From Thermus igniterrae ATCC 700962 (GTDB lineage Bacteria; Deinococcota; Deinococci; Deinococcales; Thermaceae), in NCBI RefSeq assembly GCF_000376265.1, contig NZ_AQWU01000063.1:1-64000 (forward strand): a stretch of DNA of 64,000 nt. The letters are read 5' to 3'. The translations under genes were made by a program, and so were the position numbers. Below the pieces are notes generated by a model, which was given only the letters and a program-made list of their open reading frames with translations, had not been told where the DNA came from and searched no databases. Positions 15,289-18,836 of this stretch are shown here, in pieces (the first letter of the stretch is position 1; each line of letters starts with the position of its first letter).

Positions 15289-15717
15289 TCAGTCTAGGGT
15301 ATCCGGGTGCCCCCGCAGGCAACGAATGGGCACGGTGACGGTGGTGGCGCTCACCGCGATGATAAAGGTCTGGCAGGCCTCGTCGGCGTAGAGGTAGGCC
15401 AGGCGCTCCCCAGCGTTGCAGAGGGCGTTGCCGTTGTGGTCCCAGTAGGCCACGGTGGTGCCGGAAGGACAGCTGGAAGAAAGCCTGAGGGGCGTGGGGT
15501 TGCCCATCAAGTTTTTGAGCTCGTTCCAGGTGGGGACCGTGCGATTCTGGACCAGATGCATGGCGTAGGCCGAACGCAGGTTGCGCAGGGTCTCCTGCCT
15601 CTGGGCCCTCTGCGCCTCCTCTTGAAGCGCCACATACCGGGGCACAAGGGCTGCGGTGAGGACCCCCACCAGGAGCAACACCAGGGCTAGCTCAGCCAAG
15701 GTGAACCCCTTAGCCAT
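15289..15717 (-). CDS. Type IV pilin-like protein
   Basis: A 142-residue prepilin with MAKG|FTLAELALVLLLVGVLTAALVP, Glu +5, followed by PRYVALQEEAQRAQRQETLRNLRSAYAMHLVQN, which aligns with the start of the major pilin at 17147. Four cysteines lie in the C-terminal domain, enough for two disulfides. The gene begins inside the end of the O-antigen-ligase gene (31-base overlap). It is likely a minor or alternative major pilin. Confidence 0.8.
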   Translation of the reverse strand: MAKGFTLAELALVLLLVGVLTAALVPRYVALQEEAQRAQRQETLRNLRSAYAMHLVQNRTVPTWNELKNLMGNPTPLRLSSSCPSGTTVAYWDHNGNALCNAGERLAYLYADEACQTFIIAVSATTVTVPIRCLRGHPDTLD

Positions 15718-17144
15718 ACCTCCTCCCCGGTGAACAGGGCTCCCAAGGCCAAGAGGGCCAGGGGCGTCACGTGCACGCTATCGTACCAGGTAAGCCCGTA
15801 GGCCAGGTACCCCGCCAACATCAGGGCCCAGGGGAGCTTCGGCCAGGAAGAGGCGGCCAACCCCAGCCCAAGCCAGAACAGGTAGGCCACCCCTCCCAGG
15901 AGGCCCACGGAAAGCAGGAGGTCTAGGAGGAGGTTATGGGCCTTGGCGAAGGGGGAAGGGGCGAGGAGGCGCTGGCCCTGGGAGTCTTCCAGGTAAATCA
16001 GGCGGTCCTCTCCCAAAACCACCCGCACCGGAGGCCGAAGAGCCACGGGCAGGCGGTGGTGGTCCGCCCCATTCCAATCCACCGCATAGGGATAGGCCCG
16101 GGCATACCCGTCAAATCCCCAGCCGAGAAGGGGCCGCACGGGAAGAGCCTGAACAGCCGTACGCCAAAGTTCCAGGCGGCCTGAGGAGTACGCATCCGTT
16201 TGGGAAAGGGAAAGCCCTAGTTCCGGAAAGCGCCGGGTCTCATACAGGCCAACCTGTCCGGCCCCCCAGTACAACCCGTAGGTGAAGCCCCCTACGGCCA
16301 GAAGGCCCAGGGCAGGGAGAAACGCCGGGGATCGCCGCCAGGCAAGGAAAAAGGCCAGGGCCACCAGGGGACCCCAAAGGGCCAACCACCCTCCCCGGGT
16401 CTGGGTGAACCAGAGGGCGAGGGCAGCCAGGGTAAAGAGAAGGAGAAGGCTCCCGCGGGGCCTTTGCAGGTAGAGCCCGGCGGCGAAAAGCCCGAGGAGG
16501 GCCAAAACGCCGGCCGCATGGCCCCGATGAGAGGTGAGGCCGATGGGCATCTGTGCCCGGTGGACCCCGGAAGCCGTGGCATCCGGGTTCTCGTAGCAGT
16601 CGGTTTGGGCCGCGTCAAAGCAACGGACATAGGTCTGGCCCTGGGTCGCGGTGTAGTCCAGCCTCCAGTCCCAGACTTGGGGGAAGATGGCTAGAGCATG
16701 CAGGCCCAAGGCCAGAAGGAGGGCCCTGGCAATACCCTGGGGGGAAAGGACACCCGCTTCCAGGGCCAGAAACACGGCCCAGGAGAAGGCCACGCCCAGG
16801 GCCCAGAAACGTAGCCCATCGCCCACGCTGGGGTAGCCCGTCCAGCTCCAGATGGGCTGGGGGGAAAGGAAGGTGGCGGCCGCACCGGCAAGGATAAACC
16901 CCGCCGAGGCCAAAAGAGGCCAAAGGACGCCCCTATTTAGGGGAAAAGCCCGCCTCTGCCCCCGTAAAAGAATGCCCACCAGGGCCCCCAAGGCGAATAG
17001 GGCCATGCCCCACTCCCGGGGGGCATTCCAGACCTCCTCGTGTCCCCGGCCCCAGGGATTCAGGCCGGCGAGGGCGAGCACCAGGGCCAAAAACAAAACC
17101 CCCTCGAGGGGGGAAGGCCTCGAGGGGGCTAGGGATTGGCCCAT
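15687..17144 (-). CDS. O-antigen ligase / pilin O-oligosaccharyltransferase-like membrane protein
   Basis: A 485-residue protein with about 11 membrane helices and a Wzy_C (O-antigen ligase) core: THRG-like SHRGHAAG (about 210), TQTRGGW (about 250), SGRLELWRTAVQALPVRPLLGWGFDGY (about 325) and AHNLLLDLLLSVGLLGG near 408. A large periplasmic loop lies between about 325 and 405. Position between the major pilin (2-base gap) and the next pilin strongly suggests a PglL/TfpO-type ligase that glycosylates pilin; a lipopolysaccharide-type role is the alternative. Two CCTCGAGG octamers lie 16 bases apart near its start. Confidence 0.75.
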   Translation of the reverse strand: MGQSLAPSRPSPLEGVLFLALVLALAGLNPWGRGHEEVWNAPREWGMALFALGALVGILLRGQRRAFPLNRGVLWPLLASAGFILAGAAATFLSPQPIWSWTGYPSVGDGLRFWALGVAFSWAVFLALEAGVLSPQGIARALLLALGLHALAIFPQVWDWRLDYTATQGQTYVRCFDAAQTDCYENPDATASGVHRAQMPIGLTSHRGHAAGVLALLGLFAAGLYLQRPRGSLLLLFTLAALALWFTQTRGGWLALWGPLVALAFFLAWRRSPAFLPALGLLAVGGFTYGLYWGAGQVGLYETRRFPELGLSLSQTDAYSSGRLELWRTAVQALPVRPLLGWGFDGYARAYPYAVDWNGADHHRLPVALRPPVRVVLGEDRLIYLEDSQGQRLLAPSPFAKAHNLLLDLLLSVGLLGGVAYLFWLGLGLAASSWPKLPWALMLAGYLAYGLTWYDSVHVTPLALLALGALFTGEEVWLRGSPWLS

Positions 17145-17146
17145 AC

Positions 17147-17542
17147 CTACTTGAAGCGTAGGTTCACCTTGAGGGCGTTGGCGCTGCTGTTATAGGTCTT
17201 GGCCCCGGTGGCGTAAATGGAGATGTCCGCGTTACCAGCCGCAGGGTCTGCGCTAGCGCAGGAAACCGTCACATTACCCGCCAGGGTTACCGAGCTAGAG
17301 CCGCTCCCGATGTTCACGCCCTCAAGCCCGTTGAGCACGTCGGCGCAGTAGTTGGGGTAGTCCTTGTTCTGAGCCACATAGATGGCATAGGCCGAGCGCA
17401 CCGAGCTGGCCGTGGCCTGAACCGCCGCATCCTTGGCGTCTCCGGAGAGGTCCACAAACCGCGGCACCGCGATGGCCACCAAGATGCCGATGATCACGAT
17501 TACGATGGCCAGCTCGATCAGGGTAAAACCTTTTGCCTTCAT
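17147..17542 (-). CDS. Major type IV pilin (PilA5-like)
   Basis: A 131-residue prepilin with a short leader MKAKG, then FTLIELAIVIVIIGILVAIAVP with Glu +5. The globular part (PRFVDLSGDAKDAAVQATASSVRSAYAIYVAQN) recalls, from memory, the narrow-pilus pilin PilA5 of T. thermophilus. Two cysteines (C66 and C95) can form a disulfide, and the C-terminal part is Ser/Thr/Asn-rich, suitable for O-glycosylation. It heads the operon, with its own promoter and the best ribosome-binding site of the region (AAAGGAGGG, spacing 5-6). ATG 17542 fits the usual leader length; the longer frame is not needed. Confidence 0.9.
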   Translation of the reverse strand: MKAKGFTLIELAIVIVIIGILVAIAVPRFVDLSGDAKDAAVQATASSVRSAYAIYVAQNKDYPNYCADVLNGLEGVNIGSGSSSVTLAGNVTVSCASADPAAGNADISIYATGAKTYNSSANALKVNLRFK

Positions 17543-17600
17543 CACTGCCCTCCTTTCACAGGCCCCAGCATGGGGGTGAGGTGTGAAAACGGTGTGAAAG
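17543..17600 (-). promoter_or_regulatory. Structured 5' leader of the pilin mRNA
   Basis: On the minus strand CTTTCACA (17600-17593) can pair with TGTGAAAG (17560-17553), which overlaps the start of the AAAGGAGGG ribosome-binding site. A second copy TTTCACACC (17588-17580) offers an alternative partner. An inner hairpin CCCCA-TGC-TGGGG lies at 17575-17563. Pairing would hide the ribosome-binding site. The two GGTGTGAAA copies on the plus strand are 11 bp apart and could instead be a protein-binding site. Confidence 0.45.
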
Positions 17601-17616
17601 CCAGAGCCTAGGGCCA

Positions 17617-17646
17617 AGGATACCCCGGGGCGGAGAAGGAGGCAAT
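17617..17646 (-). promoter_or_regulatory. Promoter of the pilus operon
   Basis: TTGCCT (17646-17641), an 18-bp spacer and TATCCT (17622-17617) form a good sigma-A promoter on the minus strand. Transcription would begin near 17610 and give a leader of about 70 nt. Confidence 0.6.
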
Positions 17647-17702
17647 AGGGGTTTTGTCCCCCGTTCACTGCCCTTTCATACCCCCCGTGCTAGCCTTGGG
17701 GC

Positions 17703-18836
17703 ATGCGAATACGGGCTCTGCCCCTCGCCCTCCTCCTCGCCGGCCTGGTGGGCCTAGGCCAGGGGGGGGAGCCCGTGGAGGCCCTTCTGGTCCTGCAGGA
17801 GGACGCCATTGAGGAGGGGCGCCTGGTGGCCTACACCGGGGTCCAGCGCTACCCCGTGGGCTCGGAAGCCGAACTCAAAGCCCTCCTAAGGAAGCTGGCC
17901 CGCCCACCCAGGCCCCCCCGGTTCATCCTGCAGGAGGGAAGGTGGCGGGGCGTGGAGAAGAAGGGCCTGAGCTTTGACGAGGGGGAGGCCCTGGCCGCCT
18001 ACCGGGAAGCCCTGGCCGCGGGCCGGCGAAGCTTCCGCCTGCCCGTGCGCTACACCCCTCCCAGGCCAAGCCTGCGGGAGCTCCACGCCCTGGGGGTGCG
18101 GGAGCACCTGGCCACGGGGGAGACGGACTTCCGGGGTTCCAGCCCCGCCCGCACCCACAACCTCCTCCTGGCCTCGAGCAAGCTGGATGGCCTCCTCATC
18201 CCCCCGGGCCCCTTCTCCTTCAACCGGGCCCTGGGCCCCGTCACCGAGGAGGAAGGGTACCGGGAGGCCTTTGTGATCGTGGGGGACCGGACCGAGCAGG
18301 GGATTGGCGGCGGGGTGTGCCAGGTGTCCACCACCCTGTTCCGCGCCTTCTTCTTCGCTGGGCTTCCCCTCCTGGAGCGCCACCCCCACAGCTACCAGGT
18401 GGCCTACTACAAGCCCACGGGCCTGGACGCCACGGTCATCGCCCCCTACCGGGACCTCCGGGTCCTGAACGACACCCCCGGGCACATCCTGGTGCAGCGC
18501 TCCGTGGTGGGCACCAAGCTCCGCTTCCACCTCTTCGGCACCAAGGACCGGGAGGTGCGGTGGGAAGGCCCCTTCATCTCCCAGCGCAAGCCCCCCCTGC
18601 CCACCCGGGAGATCCTGGACCCCTCCCTGCCCCCTGGGACCCGCAAGCAGATAGACTTCGCCGCCGAGGGAGCCAGGGTGGAGGTGCGCCGCACGGTGCG
18701 CTACGGGGACGGCCGGGTGCGGCAGGACAAGGTGGTGAGCGTCTACCGCCCCTGGGGAGCGGTGTACCTGGTGGGGCCTACCCCACCTGCAAAAGCACCG
18801 CCCGCTCCACGGGAAGGAGGCGGTGGGGTTCGCTGA
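17703..18836 (+). CDS. VanW family protein, exported
   Basis: A 377-residue protein with a signal peptide (residues 1-19, ALPLALLLAGLVGLGQG) and a VanW domain at about 130-280: TGETDFRGSSPARTHNLLLAS, FSFNRALGPV, GGGVCQVSTTLFRAFF, and HPHSYQVAYY. The C-terminal part (300-350) looks like a G5-type beta domain. VanW proteins are found near the cell wall; the VanW fold has been linked to peptidoglycan binding or modification, not directly to antibiotic resistance. It is divergent from the pilus operon. The 3' end overlaps the convergent small gene at 18778 by 59 bases. Confidence 0.85.
   Translation: MRIRALPLALLLAGLVGLGQGGEPVEALLVLQEDAIEEGRLVAYTGVQRYPVGSEAELKALLRKLARPPRPPRFILQEGRWRGVEKKGLSFDEGEALAAYREALAAGRRSFRLPVRYTPPRPSLRELHALGVREHLATGETDFRGSSPARTHNLLLASSKLDGLLIPPGPFSFNRALGPVTEEEGYREAFVIVGDRTEQGIGGGVCQVSTTLFRAFFFAGLPLLERHPHSYQVAYYKPTGLDATVIAPYRDLRVLNDTPGHILVQRSVVGTKLRFHLFGTKDREVRWEGPFISQRKPPLPTREILDPSLPPGTRKQIDFAAEGARVEVRRTVRYGDGRVRQDKVVSVYRPWGAVYLVGPTPPAKAPPAPREGGGGVR

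Follow-up and report, generated by a model that had tools for sequence, protein, structure and literature searches.

A TTTCACA direct-repeat box common to both major pilin genes of Thermus, a predicted activator site

The two major pilin genes of Thermus igniterrae, pilA5 and pilA4, are both preceded by an 18-bp direct repeat of TTTCACA. The exact sequence, TTTCACACCGTTTTCACA, occurs just twice in the genome, once before pilA5 in the window (here the whole analysed stretch of 64,000 nucleotides) and a second time 214 nt upstream of pilA4. We consider it probable, with reasonable confidence, that the TTTCACA copies are half-sites for a dimeric transcription activator, most likely a response regulator of the OmpR/PhoB type. 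The genome comparisons predict a previously undescribed regulon common to both major pilins and a dozen other surface or signalling genes.

The pilA5 locus

The pilin gene of the window (17147-17542, minus strand, ATG at 17542) encodes a protein of 131 aa which starts MKAKGFTLIELAIVIVIIGIL and carries the N_methyl Pfam domain; it is of the PilA5 type (top PDB match 8qqj, PilA5, E 2e-22). On the same strand, the box TTTCACA-CCGT-TTTCACA (17599-17582) consists of two 7-bp direct half-sites, 17599-17593 and 17588-17582, with an 11-bp period. CTTTCACA at 17600-17593 and TTTCACA at 17588-17582 belong to an exact 9-nt direct repeat, 11 bp apart, with identical units GGTGTGAAA/GGTGTGAAA. Such a repeat would hardly arise by chance (with ≤2 mismatches allowed, the window is expected to contain 0.05 matches), and an earlier interpretation of these letters, the sequence-only reading, had described the 11-bp-spaced repeat.

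Nine bp downstream of the box lies the predicted -10 element, CATGCT (17572-17567), of a promoter termed P2. Its start is placed at 17560-17559, 7-8 nt after the -10, because of the -10 spacing and the 39-41 nt between box and ATG in leaderless relatives; the predicted leader, GUGAAAGGAGGGCAGUG, has 17 nt. The Shine-Dalgarno sequence AAAGGAGG (17556-17549, minus strand) is overlapped by TGTGAAAG (17560-17553). An upstream promoter, P1, reads TTGCCT-N17-TATCCT (17645-17617, minus strand), with TTGCCT at 17645-17640 and TATCCT at 17622-17617; both elements had been recognised in the sequence-only reading, with a spacer given wrongly as 18 nt. At the threshold used, pilA5 orthologs were found in 8/27 Thermus genomes. 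Seven of the eight preserve P1 as TTGCNN-N17-TANNNT, always 17 nt away from the box, and the eighth has a variant form of it.

Divergent to pilA5 is a VanW-like gene (17703-18836, plus strand; Pfam VanW, E 2e-41), found in 26/27 Thermus genomes. Its own box, GTTCACTGCCCTTTCATA (17663-17680, plus strand), starts 40 nt before the ATG and is a degenerate copy with 3 mismatches, better copies being present in several orthologs. A -10 element, TAGCCT (17691-17696, plus strand), lies 6 nt before the ATG in a leaderless layout, and the gene is probably co-controlled with pilA5. A further box in the window, TTTTCAAGGGATTTTCACA, with the -10 TAGGGT (255-288 together, plus strand), precedes a DUF4388 gene (303-917) and the ORF of an HD-GYP response regulator (848-1882).

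Directly behind pilA5 the window encodes a Wzy_C/O-antigen-ligase-like protein (15687-17144, minus strand), followed by pilin-like genes to 13646. This protein is a candidate for the oligosaccharyltransferase that would act on the pilin of the narrow pilus, which in T. thermophilus is O-glycosylated.

A genus-wide box with a -10 companion

Searched as TTTCACA-N4-TTTCACA with at most one mismatch, the box was found in 27/27 Thermus genomes, and the reversed control pattern in none. About 100 sites, selected on the box alone, were aligned and gave the consensus Y-TTTCACA-NNN-Y-TTTCACA, in which both half-sites are equally conserved with a period of about 11 bp. Outside the search pattern, a TANNNT-like -10 emerged 9-10 bp downstream (A29 86%, T33 77%). 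NANNNT was present at the main offset in 86/111 box sites, against a background of about 2, and within 1 nt of it in most of the others. Box and -10 together gave 2-8 sites per genome in all 27 genomes (156 in total; reversed control, 0), many of them orthologous and hence not independent of one another.

Of the 111 genomes compared in the class, the 27 Thermus genomes and G071, of a sister genus, had the motif with its -10; otherwise a single genome had a single site. G071 carries four motif sites (L199 to L202), one of them upstream of pilA4, and is the sole non-Thermus genome with several, which recommends it as an outgroup for the regulon. A scan for the sigma-70 consensus found nothing, and searching genome contigs with the pilin added no useful Thermus orthologs. 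The box, the -10 that accompanies it and the recurrence of both at orthologous genes within these phylogenetic limits are features of the genomes compared. They support the dimeric activator site which the sequence-only reading had entered as the rival of its own proposal.

Target genes

Clustering of the downstream genes revealed sets of orthologous targets: pilA4 and pilA5 (>30 sites), VanW (16), a secreted protein family (15), receiver-like proteins (12), DUF4388 (about 11), a histidine kinase (9), MscL (7) and GGDEF proteins (6). The DUF4388 targets adjoin an HD-GYP response regulator, while the histidine kinase target is followed by a lone receiver and then by a glycosyltransferase-like gene. 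A metallophosphatase and several secreted proteins without Pfam family are also among the targets. Identities were assigned by Pfam, except that MscL, metallophosphatase and glycosyltransferase were named from sequence, without profile search. No phosphate gene was recognised among the target clusters at the strong sites surveyed. In two loci (L217, 1269-4148; L218, 5585-8470), the histidine kinase, lone receiver, a membrane protein and the glycosyltransferase-like protein form a box-associated operon that looks like a regulated exopolysaccharide locus.

The distance from box start to ATG is 39-41 nt in many targets, and 40-41 nt at most of the 16 VanW sites. With this spacing the -10 lies some six nt ahead of the ATG, a leaderless arrangement; the box would then span about -40 to -23 of short-leader promoters. 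Leaderless genes are reported to be common in Deinococcus-Thermus (PMC12340547).

Proposed mode of action

We infer activation, the start sites, and the family and identity of the regulator. The 18-bp box would replace the -35 element of P2, and two monomers bound in tandem would recruit RNA polymerase, the pilA5 mRNA starting near 17559. The resulting transcript would have a short, unstructured leader carrying the Shine-Dalgarno sequence. Boxes of the same type would serve to activate pilA4, the divergent vanW-like gene and further genes concerned with the surface, c-di-GMP and exopolysaccharide, and both pilus types would be switched together through them.

Two observations temper the role of the box promoter at the pilins. 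The first base of their -10s is C (CATNCT), and this weak match counts against it. Also, each pilin gene has a second conserved promoter, P1 for pilA5 and TTGACA-N18-NANAAT for pilA4, so that the box promoter may be other than the main one. The position of the box relative to P1, at about +10 to +28 and constant in 7/8 orthologs, would suit a protein acting at pilA5 mainly as a repressor through the same DNA, for example by blocking P1 elongation. However, most targets have the box at the -35 of a promoter with its own -10, which is an activator position, and we regard such repression as improbable.

pilA4

In the genomes compared here the box starts 211-231 nt upstream of pilA4. The second conserved promoter was seen in L001 (1500-1716) and 24 other loci. 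Directly before it stands a C-rich/G-rich hairpin, CCCCCC-AAAA-GGGGGG, and the start predicted for the box promoter falls close to where this hairpin begins. About 60 nt before the ATG there is also a near-invariant block, GGCAACAGGCACTCATGG-CCGCGC-loop-GCGCGG (L001 1631-1716 and 20 orthologs). Length differences of 1-2 nt in its loop speak against a coding frame, and its stem is invariant, so that covariation is uninformative either way. The block had no match in Rfam, where the pilA4 and pilA5 leaders gave no family and no match near the gathering score; it is possibly a conserved pilin leader RNA.

The part of the published study that describes pilA4 promoter activity (PMC10507856) finds it high at 68 °C and low at 80 °C, with an increase in minimal medium, and names no regulator. 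According to the same part, a short fragment (-25 to -231) loses activity and temperature response compared with a 499-bp fragment (PMC10507856). With the distances taken from the genomes used here, and the HB27 position assumed to agree, the box would fall near the edge of that short fragment. Total pili rise at 55 °C while the ratio of wide (PilA4) to narrow (PilA5) pili remains similar (PMC7203116); a joint rise of both is as expected from a shared activator.

The inverted repeat of pilA5

The box of pilA5 is flanked by an inverted repeat specific to this gene, with a 5′ arm AGGCTCTGGC (17609-17600, minus strand) which begins at the predicted P1 +1 (A17609), and a 3′ arm GCTGGGGCCT (17569-17560) which overlaps the P2 -10 and start. 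The sequence that pairs with the segment just before the Shine-Dalgarno sequence begins seven nt after the P1 -10. The stem is AGGTCCCAG/CTGGGACCT in most orthologs; the species of the window has three G.U pairs and one compensated pair, and G015 has a 12-bp stem of quite different sequence. RNAalifold preferred this stem over the helices of the sequence-only reading.

In the P1 transcript these arms could form a functional 5′-terminal stem, which would stabilise the mRNA while keeping the Shine-Dalgarno sequence unpaired. Their complementarity is strong in all pilA5 orthologs tested (shuffle p ≤0.01), with energies from -14.7 to -22.6 kcal/mol; the median for other box sites is -8.9. The unlike stem of G015, two pairs with changes on both sides and the position of the 5′ arm at +1 point the same way. 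Against this, covariation lies within that of shuffles (89/500, six sequences), the arms could be a DNA operator, and the P1 start is itself a prediction. We regard an RNA stem here as a genuine but doubtful possibility, compatible with an activator bound at the box and not an alternative to it. The repeat might protect the 5′ end as a stem, serve as an operator, or belong to a switch between P1 and P2. In that last form, P1 would yield a transcript with the conserved 5′ stem when the regulator is absent. When it is present, the bound box would block P1 and activate P2 with its short unstructured leader, and throughout Thermus a single regulator would couple the two pilus types, c-di-GMP turnover and exopolysaccharide. 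Taken as a whole, this scheme is speculative and rather unlikely.

Candidate regulator

Seven proteins of the genome exceed the cut-off for Trans_reg_C. The best candidate regulator is an orphan response regulator encoded beside glgC/glgA (G000:C39:10683-11354), proposed from shared distribution only. Its orthologs were found in 27/27 Thermus genomes at 83-100% identity and in G071 at 77%; elsewhere the highest value was 56%, about as similar as the paralog L163. A tree that included three outgroup genomes placed it, alone among these regulators, in a well-supported pair with a G071 protein and showed no close outgroup partner for it. The distributions of regulator and motif match, which is a correlation and not a demonstration. 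PhoB, encoded next to PhoR and PhoU, was rejected: its ortholog is also present in motif-less genomes, and no phosphate gene was recognised among the targets surveyed. Similarly, the other OmpR-type regulators (L163, L165 to L168) have orthologs in outgroup genomes lacking the motif (tree).

Repeats about one helical turn apart are also used by CII-like and MerR/CarH-like families. Since the regulator here is a candidate proposed from sequence, the box might be bound by a direct-repeat regulator of one of these or of another family, not of OmpR/PhoB type. On the other hand, the pho box has this same spacing, 7+4+7 bp and then a -10 some 10 bp further on, and an OmpR-type protein with the distribution of the motif exists. 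Regulators of CRP/FNR type bind inverted repeats (PMC8465061). We judge a regulator of another family to be quite unlikely, and retain the OmpR/PhoB-type activator.

The proposed RNA switch

In the sequence-only reading, TGTGAAAG pairs alternately with either TTTCACA copy in the P1 transcript and so hides the ribosome-binding site. Its components were all confirmed on the minus strand: the two TTTCACA copies, the CCCCA/TGGGG hairpin, and TGTGAAAG over the ribosome-binding site. The pairs are able to form, P1 is conserved, and a TTTCACA/TGTGAAA-type helix appears in the best predicted fold of the P1 leader at 70 °C in this species, G019 and G022.

The comparison of orthologs speaks otherwise. 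Both TTTCACA copies are invariant in 8/8 pilA5 orthologs, whereas TGTGAAAG is kept in three, replaced by TGTAAGGG in four and missing in one. The change to TGTAAGGG introduces a central C.A mismatch plus G.U pairs into the proposed helix. Pairing in these four is weakened but not abolished, which goes part of the way towards the outcome, loss of pairing with conserved single-strand sequence, that the sequence-only reading had named as its second ground for refutation. All informative changes are on the partner side and none is compensating; in an alignment of six distinct leaders, the central pair of the proposed helices was lost in half of the sequences. Covariation in other Thermus species, by which the reading was to be checked, therefore goes against it.

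TGTGAAA follows the box at 3 pilA5 promoters but at 0/129 other box sites; the box is thus conserved where no such RNA could form, and more than 120 sites do without the partner. Complementarity to TGTGAAAG is within chance (shuffle p ~0.19 for the box/partner duplex in this sequence), and the folding of several candidate leaders is unremarkable against shuffles, with z-scores of -1.8 to +0.4, the value of -1.8 coming from one construct. About half of the TGTGAAAG bases belong to the extended Shine-Dalgarno sequence. A start downstream of 17580, which the sequence-only reading had named as evidence against itself, fits the P2 start we infer near 17559: with P2 as promoter, the mRNA would contain neither TTTCACA copy nor the hairpin. 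Accordingly, with the repeat invariant, its partner weakened in 4/8 and missing in 1/8 and compensating changes absent, the switch is highly improbable. What looks like an RNA switch can be a side effect of a protein-binding repeat whose sequence happens to complement a strong Shine-Dalgarno sequence.

Comparison with known systems

The architecture of the box is of a known kind, while for the half-site, the regulon and the candidate regulator we found no prior description in the literature searched. The top Thermus match for TTTCACA was a CRP-type inverted-repeat site, and nothing was found there on a TTTCACA direct repeat. The E. coli pho box consists of 7+4+7 bp and is followed after about 10 bp by the -10. 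Like it, the Thermus box has 18 bp, two 7-bp direct half-sites and a 4-bp spacer and is located at -35. OmpR/PhoB proteins bind direct repeats as tandem dimers (PMC3348028). The half-site is however CTGTCAT in E. coli and TTTCACA in Thermus, and the targets seen here are pili, c-di-GMP and surface genes, with no phosphate genes recognised in the target clusters surveyed.

The sites of the Thermus CRP/FNR protein TTHA1359 have the same half-site letters (TCACA/TGTGA) but are inverted repeats, TGTRA-N6-TYACA (PMC8465061), in contrast to the direct repeats with 11-bp period described here. A CRP/FNR site was thus rejected, the letters fitting and the orientation not. The RpoN-dependent pilin promoters of Pseudomonas and Geobacter, governed by PilS/PilR, resemble the Thermus case in two-component control of major pilin transcription, for which Thermus has a candidate. 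They differ in having a sigma-54 promoter with distant enhancer sites, instead of a TANNNT-type -10 with a box at -35.

A further published case is the pilA4 promoter of T. thermophilus HB27. This promoter serves the same gene family, depends on temperature and medium, and needs a longer upstream fragment for full activity and temperature response (PMC10507856). The -35/-10 predicted for it in silico lies at -131 to -170; the box promoter is further upstream and is not mentioned in the portion of that work concerned with the promoter (PMC10507856). A single box at both major pilins, together with a short list of other targets and one candidate regulator in every Thermus genome, makes the question of pilA4 regulation directly testable, and would connect natural transformation with twitching, c-di-GMP and surface polysaccharide.
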